Assembly (NCBI RefSeq): GCF_024171995.1
Contig: NZ_JAMTCT010000024.1
Coordinates: forward strand, 1 to 64,000
DNA: 64,000 nucleotides
DNA from: Promicromonospora umidemergens
Lineage (GTDB): Bacteria > Actinomycetota > Actinomycetes > Actinomycetales > Cellulomonadaceae
Direction of reading: 5' to 3'
Shown: in pieces, positions 9,424 to 25,602 of the stretch
Layout: each line of letters opens with the position of its first letter
How positions within the stretch are numbered: the first letter of the stretch is position 1
The notes under the pieces: generated by a model
What the model saw: only the letters and a program-made list of their open reading frames with translations
Told to the model about the DNA's origin: nothing
Databases searched by the model: none
Position numbers and translations under genes: made by a program

Positions 9424-10368
9424 ATGCATCGGAACCTGCGACGGCTGGCGCCTCTTGTCGCCTCGGCCGCACTCGTCCTGTCCGCCTGCGCACCCGGCAG
9501 CGCCGAGGAGGCCCCGGCCGCCTCTGGCACGGCGGCGGCCGGCCCGACGGCGACCAAGCAGGCGAGCCCGCCGGCGCCGGTCGTCGACGTCGCCGACGAG
9601 CTGGGCCGCCTCGAGAAGAAGTACGACGCCGTCGTCGGCCTGTACGCGGTGGACACCGGCGGCGGGCCGCGGGTGGCCCACCGCGCGGACGAGCGCTTCG
9701 CGTTCGCCTCGACGTTCAAGGCGCTGGCGGCCGGGGCGGTCCTGGAGCGCAGCAGCGCCGACGAGCTCGAGCGGGTCGTCACCTACGACGCCGCGGACCT
9801 GGTGGAGTACTCACCGGTGACCGAGCAGCACGTCGAGTCGGGCATGACTATGCTCGAGATCATCGACGCGGCAGTCCAGGTCAGCGACAACACCGCCGGC
9901 AACCTCCTGTTCGACGCGCTCGGTGGACCCGACGGGCTCGAGGCAGCGCTGCGGGCGATCGGGGACGAGACGACGATGCCCGTCCGCTACGAGCCGGAGC
10001 TGAACGACGTCACGCCCGGCGACGACCGGGACACCAGCACCGCCAGGGCCCTCGCCGGCGACCTGCGGGCCTACGCGCTCGGGGACGTCCTCGACGACGC
10101 AGGGCGGACGGTCCTGGTCGAGGCGCTGCGGGGCAGCACGACGGGGGACGAGACCATCCGGGCCGGCGTGCCGGACGGCTGGGTCGTCGGGAACAAGACC
10201 GGCACCTCCGGCAACGGTGGCCGGAACGACATCGGCGTGCTCTGGCCGCCCGACGGCGAACCGGTGGTGCTGGCGATCCTGACCCGGACCGAGGACCCGG
10301 ACGCGGAGCCCGACGACGCCCTGCTGGCCGAGGTCACCGCGGTCGCAGTGGAGGCGCTGGGCGGCTGA
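9424..10368 (+). CDS. Class A beta-lactamase, lipoprotein
   Basis: This 314-residue protein has a lipoprotein signal with lipobox LSAC (C22), so it is probably anchored outside the membrane. All class A catalytic motifs are present: S96-T-F-K99 (Ambler S70xxK73), S154-D-N156 (SDN loop), E190 in RYEPELN (omega loop, Ambler E166) and K258-T-G260. It should hydrolyse penicillins and other beta-lactams by an acyl-serine mechanism. A Gly/Ala/Pro/Thr linker at residues 28-52 separates the lipid anchor from the enzyme domain. It is transcribed alone, and a G10-C-G6 tract lies 33 nt before the start. No BlaR/BlaI-type regulator is adjacent. Confidence 0.95.
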   Translation: MHRNLRRLAPLVASAALVLSACAPGSAEEAPAASGTAAAGPTATKQASPPAPVVDVADELGRLEKKYDAVVGLYAVDTGGGPRVAHRADERFAFASTFKALAAGAVLERSSADELERVVTYDAADLVEYSPVTEQHVESGMTMLEIIDAAVQVSDNTAGNLLFDALGGPDGLEAALRAIGDETTMPVRYEPELNDVTPGDDRDTSTARALAGDLRAYALGDVLDDAGRTVLVEALRGSTTGDETIRAGVPDGWVVGNKTGTSGNGGRNDIGVLWPPDGEPVVLAILTRTEDPDAEPDDALLAEVTAVAVEALGG

Positions 10369-13907: not shown

Positions 13908-13943
13908 TCGGACCGCTCATCGGACCGCTCGTCGGACCGGTCA
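13908..13943. repeat. Three 12-bp repeats between gudD and the AEC gene
   Basis: TCGGACCGCTCA, TCGGACCGCTCG and TCGGACCGGTCA are contiguous. They fill most of the 54-bp gap and run into the gudD stop codon. They may be a small intergenic duplication or a recognition site. Confidence 0.6.
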
Positions 13944-15269
13944 CCGAACCAAGCACGGTCGCTTCGGGTCGAACTCCCACCCCTCCACCAGGTACTGCAT
14001 GGCCACCGCGTCGTCGCGCGCCCCCAGCCCGTGCGCCAGGTACAGCTCGTGGGCGGCGGCCAGGCGCTCGCGGTCCAGCTCGACGCCGAGCCCCGGCGTC
14101 GTCGGCACCTGGATCGCGCCGCCCGTGATCTGTGGCGGCGCCGTCGTCAGGCCCTGCCCGTCCTGCCAGATCCAGTGGGTGTCCAGCGCCGTGATCGTGC
14201 CGGGCGCTGCGGCGCCGACGTGCGTGAACATGGCCAGCGAGACGTCGAAGTGGTTGTTGGAGTGCGAGCCCCAGGTGAGGCCGAACTCGTGGCAGAGCTG
14301 CGCCACCCGGATGGAGCCCGCCATGGTCCAGAAGTGCGGGTCGGCCAGCGGGATGTCGACGGCGCCGGCGCGCACCGCGTGCGCCAGCTCGCGCCAGTCC
14401 GTCGCGATCATGTTGGTGGCGGTCGGGAGGCCGGTCGCGCGGCGGAACTCCGCCATGACCTCCCGGCCGGAGAACCGGCCCTCCGCGCCGACCGGGTCCT
14501 CCGCGTAGGCGACGACGCCGCGCATCCGGCGCCCGAGGCGGATCGCCTCGGCCAGCGGCCAGCCGCCGTTGGGGTCGAGCGTGATCCTGGCGTCGGGGAA
14601 CCGCTCCTTGAGCGCGACGACGGTGTCGACCTCCAGGTCGCCCGCCTGCACCCCGCCCTTGAGCTTGAAGTCGGTGAACCCGTAGCGGCCGTGGGCGGCC
14701 TCGGCGAGCCGGACGACGTCGTCGGGCGTCATGGCCTGCTCGCGGCGCAGCAGGCCCCACGCGTTTGAACCGTCGTCCCCGCGCAGGTACGGCAGGCTGG
14801 TGGCGCCCGGGTCGCCCACGTAGAAGAGGTAGCCGAGCATCGGCACGCTGTCGCGCTGGACGCCCTCGCCGAGCAGCTCCGCCACCGGAACGCCCAGGTC
14901 CTGGCCGTGCAGGTCGAGCAGAGCGGACTCCAGCGCAGTGACCGCGTGCACCGTGGTGCGCAGGTCGAACGTCTGCAGGCCGCGCCCGCCCGCGTCGCGG
15001 TCGGCGAACGCGGTGGAGACGGACCGCAGCAGGCTCCGGTACCGCGCCACCGGCTGCCCGACGACGAGCCGCCCCGCCTCCTCGATCGTCGCCCGGATCT
15101 TCTCGCCGCCGGGTACCTCGCCGAGCCCGGTGCGGCCGTCGGAGTCGGTGACTATCGCGATGTTGCGCGTGAAGAACGGGGCGTGCGCGCCGGACAGGTT
15201 GAGCAGCATCGAGTCGTGCCCCGCCACTGGCACCACCTCGACGCGGGCGATCGTGGGGTGCGCGCTCAC
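13941..15269 (-). CDS. gudD: Glucarate dehydratase (enolase superfamily)
   Basis: This 442-residue protein matches the family's usual length (about 445). It has the KxK base motif FKLKGG, the metal-ligand region [22 protein letters not shown], and the His base in [21 protein letters not shown], all typical of glucarate dehydratase. It converts D-glucarate (often also L-idarate) to 5-dehydro-4-deoxy-D-glucarate. GTG 15269 overlaps the stop of the aldehyde dehydrogenase gene by 4 nt (GTGA). It follows kdgD and that dehydrogenase in one operon, so the complete glucarate-to-alpha-ketoglutarate route is encoded together. Confidence 0.93.
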
Positions 15270-16870
15270 GTCGCGGCCCCCGGCCGTGCGGGCTCCAGCA
15301 CGCCGTCGACCCGGCGCGTCAGGTGCCACGGGTTGTCCGACCGGACCGGCTCCGGCAGCAGGTGCTCGGGCAGGTTCTGGTAGGCGACGGGCCGCAGGAA
15401 CCGCTCGATCGCGAGCGTCCCCACCGACGTCGTGCGGCTGTCCGACGTCGCGGGGAACGGCCCGCCGTGCACCATCGCGTGCCCCACCTCGACGCCGGTC
15501 GGCCAGCCGTTCGCGAGGATCCGGCCCGCGGTGCGCTCCAGCACGGGCAGGAGCCGGGCGGCGGTCTCGCGGTCGGCGTCGGTCAGGTGCAGCGTCACGG
15601 TGAGCTGCCCCTCCAGCCGCTCGACGGCGGACAGCAGCTCGTCGGCGTCCGCGTACCGGACCACGAGCGACGCGGCGCCGAAGATCTCGGCCTGCAGCAC
15701 GGGGTTGTCGAGCAGGGTGGTCACATCGCTCGCGAACACCGCGGGGGCTGGGGCGTTGCGGGTGGCCCCGGGCGTGCCGGCGCCGACCTGCTCGACGCCG
15801 TCCTGCGCGGCCAGCGTGTCCACGCCCTGCTGCCAGGCCTCGGCGATGCCGCCCGTGAGCATGGTCTGCCCGGCGGCGGCCGCCGCGGCACGCCCTGCCG
15901 CCGCCACGAAGGCGTCGCCGAGCGCCCCTGCGGGCACGAGGACGAGCCCTGGAGCGGTGCAGAGCTGGCCCGACGAGCCCGTGACCGACGCGAGATACGC
16001 GGTGGCGAGGGCGTCGACGTCGCCGGCCAGGGCGCCGTCGAGCAGGATCGTCGGGTTGATCGAGCTCATCTCGGCGTAGACCGGGATGGGCACGGGGCGG
16101 GCCGCCGCGGTGGCGACCAGCGCGAGCCCGCCGGTGCGGGAACCCGTGAACCCGACGGCCTGGATCGCGGGGTCGGCCACCAGCTTCTGGCCCACCACCT
16201 TGCCCGGGCCGTACACCAGGGAGAACACGCCGGGGTGCAGCCCGCAGCCCGCGACGGCGTCGGCGACGGCGCGGCCCACCAGCTCGGCCGTGCCGGGGTG
16301 CGCGTTGTGCGCCTTGACGACGACGGGGCAGCCCGCCGCGAGCGCCGAGGCGGTGTCGCCGCCTGCGGTGGAGAAGGCGAGCGGGAAGTTGCTCGCGCCG
16401 AACACGGCGACGGGCCCGAGCGGGACCTTGCGCTGCCGGATGTCGACGCGGGGCAGGGGGGTGCGGTCTGGCCGGGCCGGGTCGATCCGCACGCCTCGGT
16501 GGTCTCCCTGGCGCACCACCTGCGCGAACAGGCGCAGCTGGCCGGTGGTGCGGGCGACCTCGCCCGTGAGGCGGGCCGCCGGGAGGCCGGTCTCGCGCAT
16601 GGCCTGGGCGACGACGTCGGGCGCAAGGGCGTCGATGTTGGTGGCTATCTGCTCCAGGAACTGCGCGTGGGGTTCTGGTGCGAGCGCGGAGAAGGAGGCG
16701 GCGGCCTCCTGTGCTGCGGCGGTCGCCCGGGTGACCTGGTCCTCGCCGAGCAGCGAGTAGGCGGGCTCGAGGGCCTGGCCGGTTGCCGGGTCCTGCGCGG
16801 CGAGGGTGCCTGCCGTGCCCACCAGGGGTGAGCCGGCGACGATCGAGTGGCCGGTCAGCTCGGCGCTCAT
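15266..16870 (-). CDS. Alpha-ketoglutarate semialdehyde dehydrogenase
   Basis: This 534-residue aldehyde dehydrogenase has the active-site cysteine in [10 protein letters not shown] and the general-base glutamate in [20 protein letters not shown] is the cofactor loop, and the N-terminal part is of the KGSADH type ([21 protein letters not shown]). It oxidises 2,5-dioxopentanoate to 2-oxoglutarate with NAD(P), the last step of glucarate and of hydroxyproline degradation. AAGGAG precedes the ATG. It overlaps both neighbours by 4 nt. It is the only enzyme of this function visible in the window. Confidence 0.92.
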
Positions 16871-17832
16871 CGGAGGTCTCCTTCTGCTGTGTGCATGTCG
16901 GGGTGCATGTCGGGGTGGACGTCGGCACTCTTGATCAGGGTGGTGAGGTCGGCGAGGTCTTGCGCGGCGAGGTCCTGCAGCGGCGGGCGGACGCTGCCCA
17001 GGTCACGGCCCACGGCCTTGAGACCGCCCTTGACGATCGACACCCCGTAGCCCTTGGTGCGGTCCCGGATGTCGAGGTATGGCAGCACGAACCGGCCGAG
17101 CTTCTCGGTGACGGCCGCGTGGTCCAGGCGGCGCACGTCCCGGTAGAAGGCGAGGGCGAACTCGGGTACGAAGTTGTACATGGCCGAGGAGTAGGTGCTC
17201 AGGCCGAGCTGCAGGAGCGGCAGGGCGAACGTCTCGGCGGTGGGCAGCCCGCCCAGGTAGAAGAGCCGGTCGCCGTTCAGGGTGTGGACGCGGGCGAGCT
17301 GCTCGATGTCGCCGAGGGCGTCCTTGAACCCGATGAAGCTGGGGTGCCGCTCGGCGAGCCGGGCGACGGTCTGCGCCGAGTACACGGCGTTGCCGCGGTT
17401 GTAGACGATCACCCCGAGGCTGGTCGACGCGCACACGGCCGAGGCGTGCTCCAGCAGGCCGTCCTGGTCGCACTCGGTGAGGTACGGGGGCAGCAGCAGG
17501 AGTCCTTCCGCGCCGGCGGCCTCGGCGGCTCGCGCGTTCTGGATCGCCTGGGCGGTGTTGCCGCCGGCGCTGCCGAGCACCGGGGTGCGGCCGGCGGCGG
17601 TCTCGACGGCGAGCCGTACCACGCGGGCCGACTCCTCGGGGGTCAGGCTGAACCCCTCGCCGGTGCCGCCGGCGGCGAACAGGCCGCCGATGTCGAAGCT
17701 CGACTGCCAGTCGATGTGCTCGCGGTAGCGCGCTTCGTCGATCTCACCGTCCCCCGTGAACGGGGTGACCGGGAACGAGAGCAGCCCGTCCTTGAGGACG
17801 GTGGCGAGCTCCTGGGGTGCGTACGTGGCCAC
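16867..17832 (-). CDS. kdgD: 5-dehydro-4-deoxyglucarate dehydratase
   Basis: This 321-residue protein belongs to the DHDPS/NAL family. GGTGEG (residues 55-60), Tyr144 in VIVYNRG and Schiff-base Lys170 in [10 protein letters not shown] are the expected catalytic elements. It dehydrates and decarboxylates 5-dehydro-4-deoxy-D-glucarate to 2,5-dioxopentanoate. GTG 17832 follows GGAGGGG. It is the first gene of the operon with the dehydrogenase and gudD. The C-terminal tail has a DMHP duplication from a 12-bp DNA repeat near 16895-16920. Confidence 0.93.
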
Positions 17833-17925
17833 GGTGGCCCCTCCTGTGACAGACGTCGGCGATGGCGTGCTGGGTCGTGCTGGGTCGGATTCGGCCCGGC
17901 GGACGCCGCCAACCTAAGAAGTCGA

Positions 17926-17943
17926 ACGATGCCTGTCCAAGCC
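17926..17943 (-). promoter_or_regulatory. Aldarate-regulon motif before kdgD
   Basis: On the minus strand this reads GGCTTGGACAGGCATCGT. It differs in one base from the motif at 18909-18926, which lies before tctC in the orientation of that operon. TTGGAC within it, an 18-nt spacer and TAGGTT could form the kdgD promoter. An inverted half, GGCATC (17950-17955), faces GATGCC (17928-17933). It is a candidate site for the LysR regulator at 17997. Confidence 0.6.
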
Positions 17944-17996
17944 CGATTTGGCATCGGCCGATACCCGACCAGCATCACTTCGACCTCGCCGGAGGG

Positions 17997-18875
17997 CTAG
18001 ACGGGATGGAGGAAGCGGAGGAACTCGTGCAGGGCCGGGTCCTTGGCGTCCCGGTTCCAGATGGCGTGCAGCTCGACGACCCCGTGCGGCACGTCGGCGA
18101 GCTCCAGGAACGTCACCCCGGACAGGCCCAGCAGGCGGGCCGACTCGGGGACGAAGGCCACGCCGCGGCCCGCGGCCACCAGCGAGCACATGGTCAGGAT
18201 CTGGCTGACGACGTGCACGACGCCGGTGTGCTCGACGGCGATGTAGCGCACCACCATGTCGTAGAAGTAGCGGGCCTTGGTGGGATGGTGCCCGATCACG
18301 GGCTGCTCGCGGAGGTCGGCTGCGGAGACCGGCCGGTCCAGCCGGGTCAGCGGGTGCCTGTGCGGCACGGCGAGGACCAGGTCCTCCGACAGCAGCAGCC
18401 GGGAGTCGAAGCTCTCCTGGTCGAACGGCGGCCGGCCGAGCGCGAGGTCGAGCTCGCCGCGCCGGATCGCCTCGATCTGCTCGACGGTGACGAGCTCCTG
18501 GAGGTCGAGGTCGACGTCCGGCATGAACTCGGCGATCTCCTGGACCAGCGTGCCGAGCAGGCTGAACCCGGAGGCCGCGGTGAACCCGAGGCGCAGCACG
18601 CCGGCCCGGCCTGCGGCGATCTTCCGGGCCAGCGCGGGGGCGGCGTCGGCGGCGGTGAGGAGCCGGCGGGCCTCCTGGAGGAACACGGCGCCCGCCGTCG
18701 TCAGCTCGACGTGCCGGTTGTCCCGCTCCAGGAGCGGGACCCCGACGGCGCGCTCGAGCTTCTGGACCTGACGGCTCAGCGGGGGCTGGGTCATGGTGAG
18801 GCGCTCCGCGGCGCGGCCGAAGTGCAGCTCTTCCGCCACGGCCACGAAGCAGCGGACCTGGTCGAGGGTGTACAC
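17997..18875 (-). CDS. LysR-family transcriptional regulator
   Basis: This 292-residue protein has an N-terminal HTH at residues 1-60 (FGRAAERLTMTQPPLSRQVQ) followed by a periplasmic-binding-like effector domain. GTG 18875 starts the canonical LysR N-terminus (YTLDQVRCFVAVAEELHF). It is placed between the kdgD operon, on the same strand, and the divergent tct operon. A shared 18-bp motif lies in both promoter regions. The likely effector is an aldarate or keto-deoxy acid intermediate. Confidence 0.88.
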   Translation of the reverse strand: MYTLDQVRCFVAVAEELHFGRAAERLTMTQPPLSRQVQKLERAVGVPLLERDNRHVELTTAGAVFLQEARRLLTAADAAPALARKIAAGRAGVLRLGFTAASGFSLLGTLVQEIAEFMPDVDLDLQELVTVEQIEAIRRGELDLALGRPPFDQESFDSRLLLSEDLVLAVPHRHPLTRLDRPVSAADLREQPVIGHHPTKARYFYDMVVRYIAVEHTGVVHVVSQILTMCSLVAAGRGVAFVPESARLLGLSGVTFLELADVPHGVVELHAIWNRDAKDPALHEFLRFLHPV

Positions 18876-18908
18876 GATGCCTTCCGAGAATCAAGCAATG
18901 CAGTAAGA

Positions 18909-18926
18909 GGCTTAGACAGGCATCGT
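18909..18926 (+). promoter_or_regulatory. Aldarate-regulon motif before tctC
   Basis: GGCTTAGACAGGCATCGT matches 17/18 the motif upstream of kdgD and has the same orientation relative to its operon. TTAGAC plus a 19-nt spacer and TATGCT is a plausible promoter. It lies in the divergent region between the LysR gene and tctC. Confidence 0.6.
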
Positions 18927-19062
18927 ATGGGCTTCCTATGCTCAACGCCCGACCGGGATATGCCTTTCCTCCGGTCGCGGGCGGCCCCCGGGCTGCCTCG
19001 CCCAAGGTCTCCGTCTGTTCAAGATCTCCATCTGTTCGAAAATCTCAATGAGGAGAGCTGTG

Positions 19063-20082
19063 ATGACATCCTTTACCCGCAGGACCCGGCGCACCCGCAG
19101 GGCCCTCCTGGGCGCCACCGCCGCCGGCGCCGCCCTGACCCTCGCCGCGTGCGGCGGGAACGTGGCCGGCGGGGCCGACGCCGCCGGCGCCGAGTTCCCG
19201 ACCGGTCCCGTGACCATCACCGTGGGCCAGGACGCCGGCGGTTCCACCGACCTGATCGCCCGGGCAGTGGCCGAGGGCATGGCCGAGGACCTGGGGGTGG
19301 CCGTCCCGGTCGTCAACCGGGCCGGGGCGAACGGTGCGCTGGCGACCGAGGAGGTCGCTGCCGAGCCGGCGGACGGGCACGAGCTGGTGCTCCTGAACGC
19401 CTCCCTCATCACGATCACGCCGCTGGCGGTGTCCGACGACGAGGCGGTCGACCTGAGCAACCTCGACGTGCTCAAGGGCCTCTCGCAGGACGACTACGTG
19501 CTGCTCGCCAGCGCCGAGTCCGGCTTCGAGGACCTGAAGGACCTCCAGGACGCGTCCGGCGACATCACGTACGGCACCACCGGCGTCGGCACAGGCTCGC
19601 AGCTCGCGCAGGCGGCGCTGTTCGCGCAGGCCGAGATCGACGGCACCGCTGTCCCGTTCGACTCGGGCTCGCCCGCGCTCACCGCCGTCGTCGGGGACCA
19701 GGTCCAGGTCGCCACCGTGCAGCTCGGCGAGGCGAAGCCGCAGATCGACGCAGGCAAGGTCGTCCCGCTGCTGGCCTTCTCGGCAGAGCGCAACCAGTTC
19801 CTGCCGGACGTTCCGACCGCCGTCGAGGAGGGCTACGACGTGCCCGTCTCCCAGTACCGTGCGGTCGCCGCGCCGAAGGGCCTGCCCGAGGACGTCAAGG
19901 CCCGGCTCGTGGAGTCGATCGACGCGGCCACCGCGTCCGAGACCTACACGGCGTTCAACGAGAACAACCTGCTCACCCCGCTGGAGATCTCCGGGGAAGA
20001 GGTCACGACCCAGTGGTCGGAGCTCGCTGAGAAGTACCGGGCGCTCACCGACGAGTACGACATCAGCCTCGCGGAAGGCTGA
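19063..20082 (+). CDS. tctC: Tripartite tricarboxylate transporter substrate-binding lipoprotein (TctC/Bug family)
   Basis: This 339-residue protein has a twin-basic N-terminus and lipobox LAAC, so it is an exported lipoprotein. The mature part has VTITVGQDAGGSTDLIAR, the ligand-loop region of Bug-type proteins, and GTTGVGTGSQLAQAAL. ATG 19063 was chosen because GAGGAG lies 8 nt upstream; an in-frame ATG at 19048 has no such site. It captures a carboxylate for TctAB. Position next to the aldarate genes suggests the ligand is glucarate, galactarate or talarate. Confidence 0.88.
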   Translation: MTSFTRRTRRTRRALLGATAAGAALTLAACGGNVAGGADAAGAEFPTGPVTITVGQDAGGSTDLIARAVAEGMAEDLGVAVPVVNRAGANGALATEEVAAEPADGHELVLLNASLITITPLAVSDDEAVDLSNLDVLKGLSQDDYVLLASAESGFEDLKDLQDASGDITYGTTGVGTGSQLAQAALFAQAEIDGTAVPFDSGSPALTAVVGDQVQVATVQLGEAKPQIDAGKVVPLLAFSAERNQFLPDVPTAVEEGYDVPVSQYRAVAAPKGLPEDVKARLVESIDAATASETYTAFNENNLLTPLEISGEEVTTQWSELAEKYRALTDEYDISLAEG

Positions 20083-20090
20083 GCGACCCC

Positions 20091-20642
20091 GTGGGAACGG
20101 CAACCGAGAAGGACGAGGTGCTCGTGGACGGCGACCCGGCACAGGTCCCGGCCGGCGAAGCTGCCGGCGCAGATACCGACGAGCGGGCCGACGACGTGCC
20201 ACCGCCCGCCGGCCCGGTGGCCAACCTCGCCGCCTGCCTGACGACCGCCGCCGTCGGCGTGGCCGGTGCCGTGGCGGCGGTGGCCCTCGGCCTCGGTACC
20301 CCCGCGCAGCCAGGGGCCGGGCTGTGGCCGCTGGCCGTCAGCGTCGCCGTCGTCGTGCTGTCCCTCGCCCAGGTCCTGATCGGGCGCCGGGGCGGGGACG
20401 GAGAGAAGTTCTCCCGGTACTCGTGGCTCTCGCTGGTCGGCCTCGCGACCCTGCTCGGTCTCGTGGCCCTGCTGCCCGTGATCGGCTTCGAGATCCCCTC
20501 CCTGCTGCTGAGCGTCGTCTGGATGAAGTTCCTCGGCGGCGAGACCTGGCGCTCGGCGCTCCTGTACTCCGCGCTGGTCGTCGGCGTGCTCTACGCGGTC
20601 TTCGTCGGGGCGCTCGGCACCAACGTCCCGCACCTCTTCTGA
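20091..20642 (+). CDS. tctB: Tripartite tricarboxylate transporter small membrane subunit TctB
   Basis: This 183-residue protein has an acidic N-terminal extension of about 45 residues, followed by four predicted membrane helices in the TctB pattern (helices at about 50-70, 80-97, 115-135 and 148-172). It starts at GTG 20091, 8 nt after tctC, and precedes tctA. It is the small accessory membrane subunit of the tctCBA importer. Confidence 0.85.
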   Translation: MGTATEKDEVLVDGDPAQVPAGEAAGADTDERADDVPPPAGPVANLAACLTTAAVGVAGAVAAVALGLGTPAQPGAGLWPLAVSVAVVVLSLAQVLIGRRGGDGEKFSRYSWLSLVGLATLLGLVALLPVIGFEIPSLLLSVVWMKFLGGETWRSALLYSALVVGVLYAVFVGALGTNVPHLF

Positions 20643-20663: not shown

Positions 20664-22217
20664 GTGGAATCGCTGCACAACGTCGCCGCCGGCTTCGCCG
20701 TCGTGCTGGAACCGACCAACCTCCTGTACTGCCTGGTCGGGGTGGTCATCGGCATGCTCATCGGTGTGCTGCCCGGGCTCGGCCCCGCCGCCACCATCGC
20801 CATCCTGCTGCCGCTCACCTACGGCGTCGAACCCGTCACCGCGATCATCATGCTCGCGGGGATCTTCTACGGCGCCCAGTACGGCGGCACCATCACCTCG
20901 GTGCTGCTCCGCCTGCCCGGGGAGGCGAGCTCCGTGGTCACCGTCCTGGACGGGCACGCGCTTGCCAAGCAGGGCCGGGCCGGTACGGCGCTCGGTGTCG
21001 CCGCCGTCGGCTCGTTCGTCGGCGGCACCGTCGCGATCATCGGGCTGACCTTTCTCGCCCCGCTCGTCGCGGGCTTCGCCCTCGACTTCGGCCCGCCCGA
21101 GTACACCGCTCTGGCCCTCGTCGGCATCCTCCTGGTCGCGACCATCGCCTCAGGCTCCAAGGTCAAGGCGCTGGTCGCCGCCGCCATCGGGCTGCTGCTC
21201 GCCACGGTCGGCCGCGACGCCTTCACCGGCGCCGAGCGGTTCACGTTCGACAGCCTGAGCCTGGCCGACGGCATCGACTTCGTCCCCGTCGCCATGGGCC
21301 TGTTCGGCCTCGGCGAGATCCTCTACAACCTGGAGGAACGGCACCGGGCCGTGTCCGCGCCGGGCAAGGTGACCAACGTCTGGCCCACCCGCAAGGACCT
21401 CAAGGAGTCGTCCGGCGCCGTGGCCCGCGGGTCCCTGCTCGGGTTCTTCCTCGGCATCCTCCCCGGTGGCGGCGCCACCATCTCCTCCATGGCCGCCTAC
21501 GCGGCCGAGAAGAAGCGCGCCAAGGACCCGAGCCGCTTCGGCAAGGGCGCCATCGAGGGCGTCGCAGGCCCGGAGACGGCCAACAACGCAGCCGCCACCA
21601 GCTCGTTCATCCCGCTGCTCACCCTCGGCATCCCCGCCAACGCCACCATGGCGCTCATGTTCGGCGCGCTCCTCATCCAGGGAGTCACACCCGGCCCGCA
21701 GCTCGTGACCGAGAACCCTGAGCTGTTCTGGGGCGTCGTCAACTCGATGTACATCGGCAACGTGCTGCTCCTGATCATGTCGATCCCGCTGGTCGGCGTC
21801 TTCGTCCGGATCCTGCGCGTGCGCGCCGCGATCCTCGCGCCCGTCACCGCGTTGATCACCATGATCGGCGCCTACACCATCAACAACTCCGTCTTCGACG
21901 TGCTCCTGGTCGTCGTGTTCGGCGCCGTCGGCTACCTGATGAAGAAGTTCGGCTTCGAGCCGGGGCCGCTCGTGCTGGCGTTCGTGCTCGGCTCCCTGCT
22001 GGAGTCCAACCTGCGGCGCTCGCTGCTGATGTTCGACGGCTCCGCGACCGGCTTCTTCACCCGGCCCATCTCCGCGACCCTCCTGGTGGTGTTCGTGGTG
22101 GTGGCCGTGCTGCCACTGGTCCGGTCCGTCCGCAACCGGCGGGCGGCCCCGTCGCAGGTGGACGCCGCGCCCGTCAAGAACCGAGACGTCAAGAACCGAG
22201 AGGAAGAGTCAGTATGA
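20664..22217 (+). CDS. tctA: Tripartite tricarboxylate transporter large membrane subunit TctA
   Basis: This 517-residue, about 12-helix protein has the duplicated TctA signature. LPGLGPAATIAILLPLTYG and YGAQYGGTITSVLLRLPGE lie in the first half, and LPGGGATISSMAAYAAEKK and NAAATSSFIPLLTLGIPANA in the second. It forms the cation-driven translocation channel. The length is the family norm. It starts at GTG 20664 and ends in ATGA, which overlaps the following universal stress protein gene. Confidence 0.92.
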   Translation: MESLHNVAAGFAVVLEPTNLLYCLVGVVIGMLIGVLPGLGPAATIAILLPLTYGVEPVTAIIMLAGIFYGAQYGGTITSVLLRLPGEASSVVTVLDGHALAKQGRAGTALGVAAVGSFVGGTVAIIGLTFLAPLVAGFALDFGPPEYTALALVGILLVATIASGSKVKALVAAAIGLLLATVGRDAFTGAERFTFDSLSLADGIDFVPVAMGLFGLGEILYNLEERHRAVSAPGKVTNVWPTRKDLKESSGAVARGSLLGFFLGILPGGGATISSMAAYAAEKKRAKDPSRFGKGAIEGVAGPETANNAAATSSFIPLLTLGIPANATMALMFGALLIQGVTPGPQLVTENPELFWGVVNSMYIGNVLLLIMSIPLVGVFVRILRVRAAILAPVTALITMIGAYTINNSVFDVLLVVVFGAVGYLMKKFGFEPGPLVLAFVLGSLLESNLRRSLLMFDGSATGFFTRPISATLLVVFVVVAVLPLVRSVRNRRAAPSQVDAAPVKNRDVKNREEESV

Positions 22218-22609
22218 GCATCGTCGTCGGGTACGTCCCCACACCCGCTGGGGAGGCCGCCGTGCGGGCGGCGATCGCCGAGGCAGGGCTCAGGGACGAG
22301 GACCTCCTGATCGTCAACTCGGCCCGGGAGGGTTCGCTCGTCGAGACGACCGTCGCCACGCCGGAGGACCTCGACCGGGTGCTCGCGCAGGCGGCGGACG
22401 CCGGCGTGCGCGCGAAGGTGCTGCGCGGCACGCACCGCGACGACTTCACCGACGAGATCCTCGACCTGGCCGAGCAGCACGAGGCGTCGCTGATCGTGAT
22501 CGGCCTGCGCCGGCGCAGCACCGTGGGGAAGTTCATCATGGGCTCGGTGGCGCAGCGGATCCTGCTCCAGGCGGACCACCCGGTCCTGGCGGTCAAGCCG
22601 GCGTCATAG
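22214..22609 (+). CDS. Universal stress protein (UspA family)
   Basis: This 131-residue single-domain protein has the ATP-binding signature GLRRRSTVGKFIMGSVAQRI (G-x2-G-x9-G-S-like spacing) and the C-terminal strand HPVLAVKP. It overlaps the tctA stop by 4 nt and is co-translated. Usp proteins fused or adjacent to TTT and TRAP transporters may tune transport through nucleotide binding; that role here is inference. Confidence 0.88.
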   Translation: MSIVVGYVPTPAGEAAVRAAIAEAGLRDEDLLIVNSAREGSLVETTVATPEDLDRVLAQAADAGVRAKVLRGTHRDDFTDEILDLAEQHEASLIVIGLRRRSTVGKFIMGSVAQRILLQADHPVLAVKPAS

Positions 22610-22653: not shown

Positions 22654-22713
22654 GTCGAACGTAGGCTTCGTCGCTTCATGAGCCCTCAGAGAGCGACGAA
22701 GCCTACGTTCGAC
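22654..22713. terminator. Long bidirectional hairpin between the tct operon and the GntR gene
   Basis: Perfect 22-bp arms (22654-22675 and 22692-22713) flank a 16-nt loop. The right arm includes the last codons and stop of the convergent GntR gene. It probably ends transcription from both sides. There is no T-tract. Confidence 0.75.
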
Positions 22714-23413
22714 GTCGGGGAGGCGCCGACTCCTCGATGAGTCGGCGGCGGGAGCCCGCAAGGTGGACCCGCATCGCCGCGGCGGCGGCGAGCGGGTCCT
22801 GCGCCTCCAGCGCCTCCAGCACCACCCGGTGCTCGTGCACGACGGCAGCGAAGCGGCCGGCGTCGGGCCGGTCGCGCTCATAGCGGTCCAGCCGGCCGCG
22901 CGGCATGGCGATCATCTGCGGGCCGAGCCGGTCCAGGGCCTGCAGCAGGAACCTGTTCCCAGCGGCCTCGGCCACGAGCCGGTGGAAGGCGAAGTCGTGC
23001 TGCACGGCAGTCGCCGGATGCCCGTCGGAGGCAGCAAGGGCATCGAGCCGGTCGGCCAGCGCCGCGAGCTGGGCCGGCGTGCGCCGGGTCGCTGCGAGCG
23101 CGGCGGCCTCTGCCTCCAGCGCCAGGCGGTACTCGACCAGGGCGAGCCGGTCGTCCAGCGACCGGGCGAGCTGCGGGGCTCCGTCGGCGTCGTCCGCCGG
23201 GGGAGTGAGCGCGTAGCTGCCGCTGCCCCGCCGGGTGTGGACCAGCCCCTCCAGGTTCAGGCGGGCGATCGCCTCTCGCACGACGGTGCGGCTGACCTGG
23301 TGCTCGGCCGCCAGGCGCGGCTCGCTGGGCAGCTTCTCGCCCGACGCGATGTCGCCGTTGACGATGCGAGTCCGCAATGACTCCACCAGGGTGCCGCTCA
23401 GGGTCTTGGCCAT
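22703..23413 (-). CDS. GntR-family regulator (FadR/FCD subfamily)
   Basis: This 236-residue protein has a winged helix (residues 1-70; LAAEHQVSRTVVREAIARLN) and a C-terminal FCD domain. The FCD domain shows the D-x3-H metal motif in HDFAFHRLV and later histidines (HEHRVV, RVHLAG). FCD regulators sense carboxylic and sugar acids. It is downstream of and co-directional with the talarate/galactarate dehydratase (33-nt gap), so it is probably its autoregulated repressor. The palindrome at 24611-24635 is the candidate operator. Confidence 0.87.
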   Translation of the reverse strand: MAKTLSGTLVESLRTRIVNGDIASGEKLPSEPRLAAEHQVSRTVVREAIARLNLEGLVHTRRGSGSYALTPPADDADGAPQLARSLDDRLALVEYRLALEAEAAALAATRRTPAQLAALADRLDALAASDGHPATAVQHDFAFHRLVAEAAGNRFLLQALDRLGPQMIAMPRGRLDRYERDRPDAGRFAAVVHEHRVVLEALEAQDPLAAAAAMRVHLAGSRRRLIEESAPPRRRT

Positions 23414-23446
23414 GTGCCCATGCTTCCACCGCTCGTCCGTCCTGGG

Positions 23447-24580
23447 TCAGCGGGGGGTGATGAGGGTGGTGTCGGTGGTCCAGGCGCGTGCCTGCTCGCT
23501 GAGGGTGACGCCGAGGCCCGGGCGGTCGGGGACGAGCATGCGGCCGTCCCGCGTCTCGAGGCGCTCGTCGAACAGCGGGTCGAGCCAGTCGAAGTGCTCC
23601 ACCCACGGCTCGCGCGGGTAGGTCGCCGCAAGGTGGAGGTGGATCTCCATCGCGAAGTGCGGTGCGAGGTCCAGCCCTGCCTGGTCCGCGAGCGTGAGCA
23701 GGCGCAGGAACTGCGTGATCCCGCCGACGCGCGGGGCGTCCGGCTGGATGATGTCGCACGCGCGGGTGGCGATGAGGCGCTCGTGCTCCGCGACCGACGC
23801 GAGCATCTCGCCCGTCGCGATCGGGGTGTCCAGGGCCGCGGCGAGCGCGGCGTGGCCCTCGGCGTCGTAGGCGTCCAGCGGCTCCTCGATCCAGGTGAGG
23901 TCGAACTGTTCGAGACGCCGACCCATGCGCAGGGCGGTGCTGCGGTCCCACTGCTGGTTGGCGTCGACCATGAGCGGAACGGAGGGGCCGATGTGCTCGC
24001 GGACGGCGGCGACGCGAGCCAGGTCCGCGGCGCCGTCGGGCAGGCCCACCTTGATCTTGATGCCGCCGATGCCCTCGGCGATCGAGCGGCTCGCGCGGTC
24101 GGTGACCTCCTCGATGCTCGCATTGAGGAAACCGCCCGAGGTGTTGTAGGTGCGTACCGAGTCGCGGTGGGCACCGAGCAGCTTGGCCAGCGGCAGGCCC
24201 GCGCGCTTGGCCTTCAGGTCGTACAGCGCGATGTCGATCGCGGCGAGCGCCTGGGTGGCGACCCCCGAGCGGCCCACGGACGCCCCCGCCCACAACAGCT
24301 TCGTGTACAGCTTGGCGATGTCGTTGGGGTCCTCGCCGACGGCGGTCTGTGCCACCTCCTTCGCGTGCGCGTACTGCGCGGGGCCGCCCGCACGCTTGGA
24401 GTACGAGAAGCCGAGGCCCTCGAACCCCTGCTGTGTGGTGATCTCCGCGAAGAGGAACACGACCTCGGTCATCGGCTTCTGGCGGCCGGTGAAGACCTTG
24501 GCGTCGGAGATGGCGGTGGCCAGCGGCAGCGTGACAGTCGAGAGCTGCACGGTCCGGATGGCGTCGGGCTGGTACGTCAT
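23447..24580 (-). CDS. L-talarate/galactarate dehydratase-type enolase-superfamily enzyme
   Basis: This 377-residue mandelate-racemase-group protein has the KxK base GIKIKVG, metal ligands in VDANQQWDR, WIEEPLDAYD and GEMLAS, and the acid/base His in APHFAMEIHLHLAA. These details fit the talarate/galactarate dehydratase type, which also yields a keto-deoxy-glucarate that kdgD can use. AAAGGAG precedes the ATG at 24580. It stands in an operon with the FCD regulator. Another aldarate or acid-sugar dehydratase of the same subgroup cannot be ruled out. Confidence 0.82.
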   Translation of the reverse strand: MTYQPDAIRTVQLSTVTLPLATAISDAKVFTGRQKPMTEVVFLFAEITTQQGFEGLGFSYSKRAGGPAQYAHAKEVAQTAVGEDPNDIAKLYTKLLWAGASVGRSGVATQALAAIDIALYDLKAKRAGLPLAKLLGAHRDSVRTYNTSGGFLNASIEEVTDRASRSIAEGIGGIKIKVGLPDGAADLARVAAVREHIGPSVPLMVDANQQWDRSTALRMGRRLEQFDLTWIEEPLDAYDAEGHAALAAALDTPIATGEMLASVAEHERLIATRACDIIQPDAPRVGGITQFLRLLTLADQAGLDLAPHFAMEIHLHLAATYPREPWVEHFDWLDPLFDERLETRDGRMLVPDRPGLGVTLSEQARAWTTDTTLITPR

Positions 24581-24610
24581 GGCGCTCCTTTGCGGCGGGT
24601 TCAGATGTGA

Positions 24611-24635
24611 TCATACAAGTATCGAACCTGTATGA
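24611..24635. promoter_or_regulatory. Palindromic operator candidate for the GntR/dehydratase operon
   Basis: TCATACA (24611-24617) and TGTATGA (24629-24635) form a 7-bp inverted repeat around 11 nt. It lies 31-55 bp before the dehydratase start and 26 bp before the divergent epimerase start, in the only AT-rich patch of this area. It is a likely GntR binding site. Confidence 0.55.
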
Positions 24636-24660
24636 CGAATATGGATGGGACCCTGAGCCC

Positions 24661-25602
24661 ATGACCACGCATCTCGTCGTCGGCGCCGGCCCGGTCGGTG
24701 CCGCACTCGCGTACCGGCTGTCCCAGGCCGGTCGCACCGTCCGAGTGGTGACCCGCTCCGGCGTCGGACCCAGCCTTCCCCGCGTCCAGCGGCTCGCGGT
24801 CGACGCGACCGACGCGGCGGCGCTCGCGAACGCCGCCCAGGGCGCGGGCGTGCTGTACAACTGCGCGAACCCCGGGCCGTACCCGGAGTGGGAACGCGGC
24901 TGGCCGCCGCTGGCCAAGTCGGTGCTGCACGCGGCCGAGGCGTCCGGGGCGGTGCTCGTCAGCCTGGGCAACCTCTATGGCTACGGGCCGGTCGACGGGC
25001 CGATGACCCGGAGCAGGCCGCTCGCCCCGTCGGGCCCTCTCGGTGAGGTCAGGGCACAGGTCTGGCAGGAGGCGCTCGCCGCGCACCAGGCCGGCCGCGT
25101 TCGAGTCACGGAGGCGCGGGCCTCCGACTACATCGGACCGTCGGTGACCGAGGCGCACGGCGTCCTGCCGGTGTACGCGGCGGCGACCCTCGCGGGAAGG
25201 TCGGCGCCGGTCCTCGCGGACCCGGACCAGCCGCACACGTGGACGGCCGTCGACGACGTGGTCTCGACCCTCGTCGCGCTCGGGGTGGACGACCGGGCCT
25301 GGGGTTCGCCATGGCTCGTGCCGTCGAACCCGCCCGCGACGGTCCGTGAGGTGCTGCGTGAGCTCGGTGCCCGGGCCGGGACGGGTGAGCCGCGGCTCCG
25401 GCGCGTGCCGCGCATCGCGTTGCGCGCCGGGGGGCTCGCGGTGCCGCTGGCGCGCGAGGCGCTCAGCGTGCTCTACCAGTTCGACCGGCCGTTCGTCGCG
25501 GACACGTCGGAGACCAGCAACGTGCTCGGGGTCCGGCCCACACCGTGGACGCAGATCCTGGACGCGACGGCGCCGGCGTGGCGGGCCCGCGCGACGGCCT
25601 GA
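24661..25602 (+). CDS. NAD-dependent epimerase/dehydratase-family protein
   Basis: This 313-residue protein has the Rossmann motif VVGAGPVGAALA at residues 6-17, NCANPGPYPEW, and LGNLYGYGP with the extended-SDR tyrosine. The usual catalytic YxxxK is not evident, so it may be an atypical member. ATG 24661 was chosen because an upstream GTG (24607) would place the palindromic operator inside the gene. It is divergent from the dehydratase. A role with sugar acids is possible but unproven. Confidence 0.75.
   Translation: MTTHLVVGAGPVGAALAYRLSQAGRTVRVVTRSGVGPSLPRVQRLAVDATDAAALANAAQGAGVLYNCANPGPYPEWERGWPPLAKSVLHAAEASGAVLVSLGNLYGYGPVDGPMTRSRPLAPSGPLGEVRAQVWQEALAAHQAGRVRVTEARASDYIGPSVTEAHGVLPVYAAATLAGRSAPVLADPDQPHTWTAVDDVVSTLVALGVDDRAWGSPWLVPSNPPATVREVLRELGARAGTGEPRLRRVPRIALRAGGLAVPLAREALSVLYQFDRPFVADTSETSNVLGVRPTPWTQILDATAPAWRARATA

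Follow-up and report, generated by a model that had tools for sequence, protein, structure and literature searches.

In the soil actinobacterium Promicromonospora umidemergens, the gene of a LysR-type regulator lies between a glucarate operon and a divergently oriented operon for a tripartite transporter of the TTT family. A preliminary description had noted that the same 18-bp motif precedes both operons. This raises the question whether the two operons form one regulon, and whether TctCBA would import aldarates. Here we analyze the window, i.e. the whole stretch of 64,000 nucleotides that contains the locus, together with related genomes.

Genes of the lysR Locus

As described before, lysR lies on the minus strand between kdgD (-) and tctC (+) (Table 1). 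The LysR protein has both an N-terminal HTH_1 and a C-terminal substrate-binding domain, and its predicted start codon is a GTG at 18873-18875. The nearest solved relatives are 7w06, BenM and CatM. AlsR is the best NCBIfam model (225.6 bits versus a cut-off of 430), and the protein appears to sit near the BenM/CatM/AlsR branch, outside any named equivalog.

The earlier naming of the glucarate genes holds, with kdgD above its cut-off and gudD clear, although slightly under its equivalog cut-off. None of the best 25 of 36 matched NCBIfam models reaches its cut-off for the aldehyde dehydrogenase; its subfamily was assigned by context. TctC, TctB and TctA are encoded by adjacent genes on one strand and all score above their Pfam cut-offs, which supports membership in the TTT family. 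Next to the tct operon (22703-25602) are genes for a GntR/FCD regulator, a galactarate dehydratase and a protein resembling uronate dehydrogenase (udh). None of the three has its own LysR module, and they possibly represent a second, GntR-controlled branch. A class A beta-lactamase gene is also found near the cluster (9424-10368, +).

Table 1. Genes and putative regulatory elements of the lysR locus (window coordinates).
Feature	Position	Strand	Basis and remarks
gudD, glucarate dehydratase-like, enolase superfamily	13941-15269	-	TIGR03247 780.6 bits (cut-off 828.7); MR_MLE_C
Aldehyde dehydrogenase, ketoglutarate semialdehyde dehydrogenase (KGSADH) by operon context	15266-16870	-	Pfam Aldedh
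kdgD, 5-dehydro-4-deoxyglucarate dehydratase	16867-17832	-	TIGR03249 378.6 bits (cut-off 373.95)
Putative LysR operator/promoter module before kdgD	17911-17976	-	Alignment; profile 66.6 bits, 62.9 with window left out; E 1.2e-13
kdgD-side -10 TAGGTT	17911-17916	-	Predicted
kdgD-side -35 TTGGAC	17935-17940	-	Inside 18-mer 17926-17943; spacer 18 bp
kdgD-side dyad ATGC-N7-GTAT	within 17959-17976	-	Followed by second ATGC half-site
lysR, LysR-type regulator, 292 aa	17997-18875	-	Pfam HTH_1 (PF00126, 81.5 bits), LysR_substrate (PF03466, 133 bits)
Putative LysR operator/promoter module before tctC, divergent from lysR	18876-18942	+	Profile 71.3 bits, 67.4 with window left out; E 4.1e-13
tct-side dyad, form ATGC-N7-GAAT	within 18876-18893	+	Abuts predicted lysR start codon
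tct-side -35 TTAGAC	18912-18917	+	Inside 18-mer 18909-18926; spacer 19 bp; second ATGC half-site upstream
tct-side -10 TATGCT	18937-18942	+	Predicted
tctC, TTT substrate-binding lipoprotein	19048-20082	+	Pfam TctC PF03401; lipobox-like LAAC; PDB relatives are TTT/Bug proteins
tctB	20091-20642	+	Pfam TctB PF07331
tctA	20664-22217	+	Pfam TctA PF01970, 536 bits
Universal stress protein gene, end of tct operon	22214-22609	+	Pfam Usp
GntR/FCD regulator beside the regulon	22703-23413	-	Pfam FCD, GntR; without own module
L-talarate/galactarate dehydratase	23447-24580	-	NF047820 683.7 bits (cut-off 500)
NAD-dependent epimerase-family gene, udh by context only	24607-25602	+	Pfam Epimerase

The 18-mer Is Part of a Longer Putative Operator/Promoter Module

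A search of the window recovered GGCTTRGACAGGCATCGT exactly at 17926-17943 (-) and 18909-18926 (+), confirming the two copies before kdgD and tctC. They are the sole matches in the window at up to 3 mismatches (0.06 expected), and two matches occurred in none of 100 shuffled windows. Nor is the motif common elsewhere in the genome. With up to 3 mismatches allowed, its 6,600,894 bases contain 8 matches, namely the 2 perfect window copies and 6 with exactly 3; outside the window copies, zero matches were found at up to 2 mismatches. The reversed control pattern gave 5 genome matches at up to 3 mismatches.

Within the family, the 18-mer alone beats all 200 shuffles on both sides of lysR in 16 of 16 loci. 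Outside the family it does so in 15 of 25 loci on the tct side and in 8 of 25 on the kdgD side when LysR is at least 49% identical. Below 49% identity, it beats all 200 shuffles in none of 13 loci.

Alignment of the same regions from relatives revealed a gap-free module of about 70 bp, with the 18-mer as its downstream part. The shared motif of the preliminary description is real, but it covers no more than the 3' portion of an element whose upstream half contains the dyad GATGC-N6-GGTATC. The module reads TGATGC-N6-GGTATCA, 4 bases, ATGC, 9 bases, CTTRGACAKGCAT and a TAG..T hexamer. Its parts are an ATGC-N7-GTAT dyad, a second ATGC half-site, a -35 element TTRGAC, a spacer of 18-19 bp and a TAG..T -10 element. 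The profile was built from 48 sites picked from 54 loci by core match, with near relatives limited to the window, L071 and L079. Of these sites 47 (L119 was left out) align without gaps across 72 columns, 11 of which are invariant.

The suggestion that the 18-mer could hold a -35 element is borne out, since the likely -35 TTRGAC lies inside it. When the distance to the best TAGNNT fit was allowed to vary from 15 to 20 bp, it was 19 bp in 38 of 48 sites and 18 bp in the other 10. These spacers are longer than the usual 17 bp between -35 and -10. The centre of the ATGC-N7-GTAT dyad lies 27 bp upstream of module position 0, i.e. at about -65 from the start predicted off the -10 element; taking this -10 as real, the proximal half-sites extend from about -50 to -26 and flank the -35. 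LysR-type promoters have a distal dyad of T-N11-A geometry near -65 and a second site near -35. With its T-N11-A dyad near -65 and its site near -35, counted from the predicted start, the module fits this layout.

In the window, the second dyad arm of the tct-side copy is GAAT instead of the consensus GTAT. After the two copies, the next place in a profile scan of the window scores -14.9 bits and overlaps one of them, and the best of 20 shuffled windows scores -4.1 bits. In the whole genome the sequence profile finds 2 modules only (E about 1e-13), followed by a match at E 0.65. TctC and TctA each gave five matches in the genome (on contigs C1, C7, C11 and C24), and with five TTT systems and 2 modules, the other four TTT systems are without a module. 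Both copies stand out from their surroundings in 10 genomes of the genus: tct-side module columns are 0.95 conserved versus 0.63 and 0.71 in the flanks, and kdgD-side columns 0.81 versus 0.54 and 0.58.

The Module Co-occurs with LysR across Genomes

We compared the distribution of the motif with that of LysR orthologs, called at E<=1e-60, in 221 genomes of the family and in a class sample of 394 genomes. A LysR ortholog is present in 16 of the 221 family genomes. Inverted pairs of the 18-mer, about 1 kb apart and with up to 2 mismatches, were found in 14 family genomes, all of them within these 16. In the remaining two, G021 and G112, the profile found both module copies (L103 and L104). No inverted 18-mer pair on one contig was detected in the 205 family genomes without LysR. 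Some 18-mer match exists in 12 of these, a single one in 11 cases and one on each of two short contigs in G152. The window's genus is represented by 13 genomes, three of which lack LysR and the motif alike.

A similar picture was obtained for the class. The module was found at E<=1e-6 in 31 of 38 genomes with LysR versus 1 of 356 others; 31 of the 32 class genomes with a strong module hence possess LysR. When the 24 training genomes were removed, the numbers were 7 of 14 versus 1 of 356 (Fisher p 1.5e-10). At a looser threshold (E<=0.01), the module was present in 37 of 38 LysR genomes and in 20 of 356 others. The seven LysR genomes without a module at E<=1e-6 are G269, G343, G403, G501, G571, G572 and G590. 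G403 has no good site on either side of lysR (L097, L098), and a 41-bit module precedes kdgD elsewhere in this genome (L212). The link to LysR rests on these genome scans, because the profile was trained beside lysR and most loci described below were picked by LysR.

Genes behind the Module

Regions of up to 20 kb were fetched for 15 of 15 other family LysR places and 38 of 40 class places. Together with the window and 7 regions fetched for profile matches, this gave 61 loci (1.22 Mb). G251 was taken in for its module, G590 is absent from the fetched loci, and L081 and L082 (contigs of G152) are outside all counts. A leave-one-out scan of the 61 loci yielded 96 modules above 35 bits, compared to none in the reversed sequences. 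Genes of the two operons or the galactarate dehydratase gene are faced by 79 modules (kdgD 35, tctC 32, gudD 9, galactarate dehydratase 2, aldehyde dehydrogenase 1), and 17 modules face uncatalogued genes. A module was found upstream of 32 of the 33 detectable tctC orthologs (31 of 32 without the profile-fetched loci). The exceptional locus, L073, has a module as well, with an unreadable gene in front of it. The proposal of one regulon is strongly supported by these numbers and by the motif pair in 14 of 16 family genomes with LysR, the other two being covered by the profile. Comparative sequence analysis hence strongly supports a single regulon that would link tctCBA to the glucarate operon.

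Eight of the 17 uncatalogued genes were scanned against Pfam and NCBIfam and the others in part assigned by eye; some of these frames are probably not genes. In L104 the module faces a tartronate semialdehyde reductase gene that scores above its cut-off. ABC-type binding proteins are encoded behind modules in L070 and L088, and MFS permeases in L115 and L207, where the best models, HpaX and a galactonate transporter, are both below cut-off. The scans also identified D-2-hydroxyacid dehydrogenases in L113, L121 and L207. Genes in L117, L118 and L120 resemble this family by eye. The D-2-hydroxyacid dehydrogenases and MFS permeases of these loci (L113, L115, L117, L118, L120, L121, L207), mostly found beside more distant LysR proteins, are possible further members of the regulon.

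Several loci separate the module from lysR. In G398 a distance of 1.65 kb separates lysR from the tctC module (L099), and one of about 10 kb separates it from the kdgD module (L208). In L094 the catabolic operon and its module are 7.1 kb from lysR, and L103 has a third module, before kdgD, at a distance of 5.3 kb. L083 and L106 have no tct operon opposite lysR; the module copy at this place is weak there (14 and 32 bits, respectively), in contrast to the strong copy on the kdgD side (60 and 71 bits). In L085 both sides reach at most 14 bits in the locus scan, and the genome scan gave a weak kdgD-side match (20 bits, E 0.001). Rearranged loci of this kind suggest that the module belongs to the target operons and not only to lysR.

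In other loci lacking tct, the lysR-divergent copy faces another gene: an ABC-type binding protein gene in L088 and (by eye) L095, a gudD paralog in L096 (by eye), kdgD in L116 and, weakly (30 bits), in L112. For L070, a uronate dehydrogenase-like gene (by eye) lies behind the module divergent from lysR, which scores 43 bits. A 77-bit module precedes tctC in L206 (at about 9618-9686), and LysR was not detected in the 20 kb fetched; the regulator may act in trans here or have been lost. In G506 a module precedes a gudD match 117 bases long, again with no LysR in the 20 kb fetched.

Related Sites in Proteobacterial Loci

The analysis also covered 22 loci of Proteobacteria in which tct genes, lysR and often kdgD are arranged as in the window. 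Such loci include L139, L146, L156, L157, L172, L179, L185, L191, L196, L197, L200 and others, from Bradyrhizobium, Ancylobacter, Bosea, Azospirillum and others, as named in their records. No module above 25 bits was found in the 22. A related dyad, [AG]AT[CG]C-N7-GNATC, a pattern written after viewing 12 of these loci, occurs in 12 of the 22 next to tct and in 5 next to kdgD, never in both places, and in none of the reversed sequences. In all, 17 of the 22 have this dyad, of the GATCC-N7-GNATC type, on one side. The existence of a related proteobacterial dyad is suggestive only.

Modules beside LysR and kdgD were observed in L183 (around 9463, 69 bits), L171 (around 10904, 44 bits), L189 (39 bits) and L194 (42 bits), in the latter two around 9932; the records bear the names Xanthomonas, Bradyrhizobium, Thiomonas and Proteobacteria. 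It is possible that the operator is not confined to Actinobacteria.

Regulatory Model and Alternative Explanations

With a probability of about 0.8, the whole is explained by one LysR regulon, in which kdgD-KGSADH-gudD and tctCBA would be activated together for aldarate uptake and breakdown. LysR itself is the well supported candidate for the regulator and likely binds both modules. In the model proposed here, the operator is of the classical LysR type and overlaps the -35; the 18-mer would be its activation half, and lysR has one copy on each side. A LysR tetramer would contact the distal ATGC-N7-GTAT dyad (about -65) with one dimer and the proximal half-sites (about -50 to -26) with the other. 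Without inducer both promoters, with their long spacers of 18-19 bp, would be off, and LysR would restrain its own expression; such autoregulation is suggested by the tct-side dyad, which abuts the predicted lysR start codon. Binding of an inducer, which we infer to be an aldarate or a breakdown product, might shift the proximal dimer, and RNA polymerase would then be recruited to kdgD-KGSADH-gudD and tctCBA. In consequence, uptake and breakdown of glucarate or galactarate would be co-induced.

The modules could instead bind another regulator, for example the GntR/FCD protein encoded nearby, with lysR as a bystander. A GntR regulator, GguR, is predicted to act on aldarate genes in Halomonas (in the available parts of PMC5507952), and finding LysR in 32 of 33 tctC loci does not decide independently between LysR and GntR, because most of the loci were chosen by LysR. 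We still regard such a binder as improbable. The fetched stretch contains no relative of the GntR protein in 15 of the 33 tctC loci (it is present in 18, including the window), LysR accompanies the strong module in the class genomes with a single exception, and the T-N11-A dyad and the placement at -65 and -35 are generally known as features of LysR-type operators. It is still less probable that the tctC-side copy serves lysR autoregulation only and that tctCBA is no true target. This would agree with the constant offset of 35 from the LysR match start in 19 of the 41 tct-side sites listed. It conflicts with the module just upstream of tctC but remote from lysR in L099, with the module before tctC in L206, a locus without detected lysR that was fetched for its module, and with the weakness of the divergent copy in L083 and L106. 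Finally, there is a negligible probability that the repeat arose by chance or by a recent local duplication and has no function. Near-identity within the own genome does span only 18 bp, as might be expected in this case, but the 18-mer is unique in the genome and both of its places are conserved in relatives. Chance as the origin of the repeat was ruled out by the window and genome counts, the class scan and the complete lack of modules in reversed loci.

The preferred reading, a LysR regulon for aldarates, also includes a prediction about the transported substrate. Galactarate dehydratase is encoded in 31 of the 33 tctC loci; kdgD is present in 28, and 28 have gudD or an approximately 37% identical paralog. 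A udh-like gene was found in 9 of 33, all 9 in the window's genus. The gene content common to tctC loci is therefore that of aldarate breakdown, favouring glucarate/galactarate over uronates. Alternatively, both sites might belong to one LysR regulon in which TctCBA imports hexuronates or their lactones, which the product of the epimerase-family gene turns into aldarates inside the cell. The udh-like gene at the locus and its relatives in the genus would fit, as would the L070 module in front of a udh-like gene. We nevertheless consider this route unlikely. By tblastn, udh is found in 0 of the 23 tctC loci outside the genus, compared to 18 for kdgD, 19 for gudD or its paralog and 22 for galactarate dehydratase, and in the window genome no module accompanies the udh-like gene itself. 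Import of aldarates by TctCBA is well supported by the content of the regulon, and the transporter probably brings in sugar diacids such as glucarate.

Relation to Known Systems

The 7-bp spacing of a distal dyad, proximal half-sites around the -35 and a divergent target are also known from the BenM/CatM promoters of the ben and cat genes in Acinetobacter. The module shares all three features, and LysR lies near the same branch. Unlike in BenM/CatM, the half-site here is ATGC/GYAT, the predicted inducer is an aldarate or its product, and the regulator gene has one copy on either side.

The preliminary description did not know aldarates as an established substrate class of TTT transporters; as a claim of novelty, this did not hold. 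In the available text, Leyn et al. (2017, PMC5507952) predicted that a TctABC system controlled by the GntR regulator GguR takes up galactarate/glucarate in Halomonas, and the review of the TTT family by Rosa (PMC5812351) tabulates this system. For a TTT system that transports D-glucarate, a 2026 paper (PMC13390454) refers to Bouvier et al. (2019). Given the earlier prediction and this citation, the substrate class is not new for the TTT family. The Halomonas GguR regulon resembles the one proposed here in that a TTT system predicted for galactarate/glucarate uptake is co-regulated with the catabolic operon; according to the same parts of the source, the regulator there belongs to the GntR family, whereas here a LysR-type regulator with its own operator probably acts, in Actinobacteria. 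CxaP was dropped as a TTT precedent for aldarates, because the literature, as far as available, calls it a TRAP protein. Binding proteins of the TTT family with known ligands include BugD (aspartate), BugE (glutamate) and AdpC (adipate) in the accessible sections of the review (PMC5812351). TctC belongs to their family by its Pfam domain, and 2f5x, 2qpq and 5oei are among 11 matched PDB sequences. None of the three is given an aldarate ligand in those sections, in contrast to the ligand predicted for TctC.

A literature search, with most subscription papers outside its reach, returned no LysR-controlled TTT regulon for aldarates. The regulatory mechanism and the substrate class would be of known types. 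As far as the searches reach, what appears new is the LysR operator, along with its distribution over actinobacterial families and the way in which transporter classes change behind it.

The locus offers a putative operator at which aldarate regulation by LysR can be tested in Actinobacteria, and ties one of the five TTT systems of the genome to a substrate class through regulation rather than homology. The promoter/regulator pair may respond to glucarate or galactarate. We consider it likely that a widespread actinobacterial LysR aldarate regulon exists, in which the cassette of about 70 bp remains stable and the unrelated transporters behind it (TTT, ABC, MFS) replace one another; the cassette itself could then serve to assign substrates to transporters not yet characterised. 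The same module before TTT, ABC and MFS transporter genes would then permit substrate prediction in many genomes.
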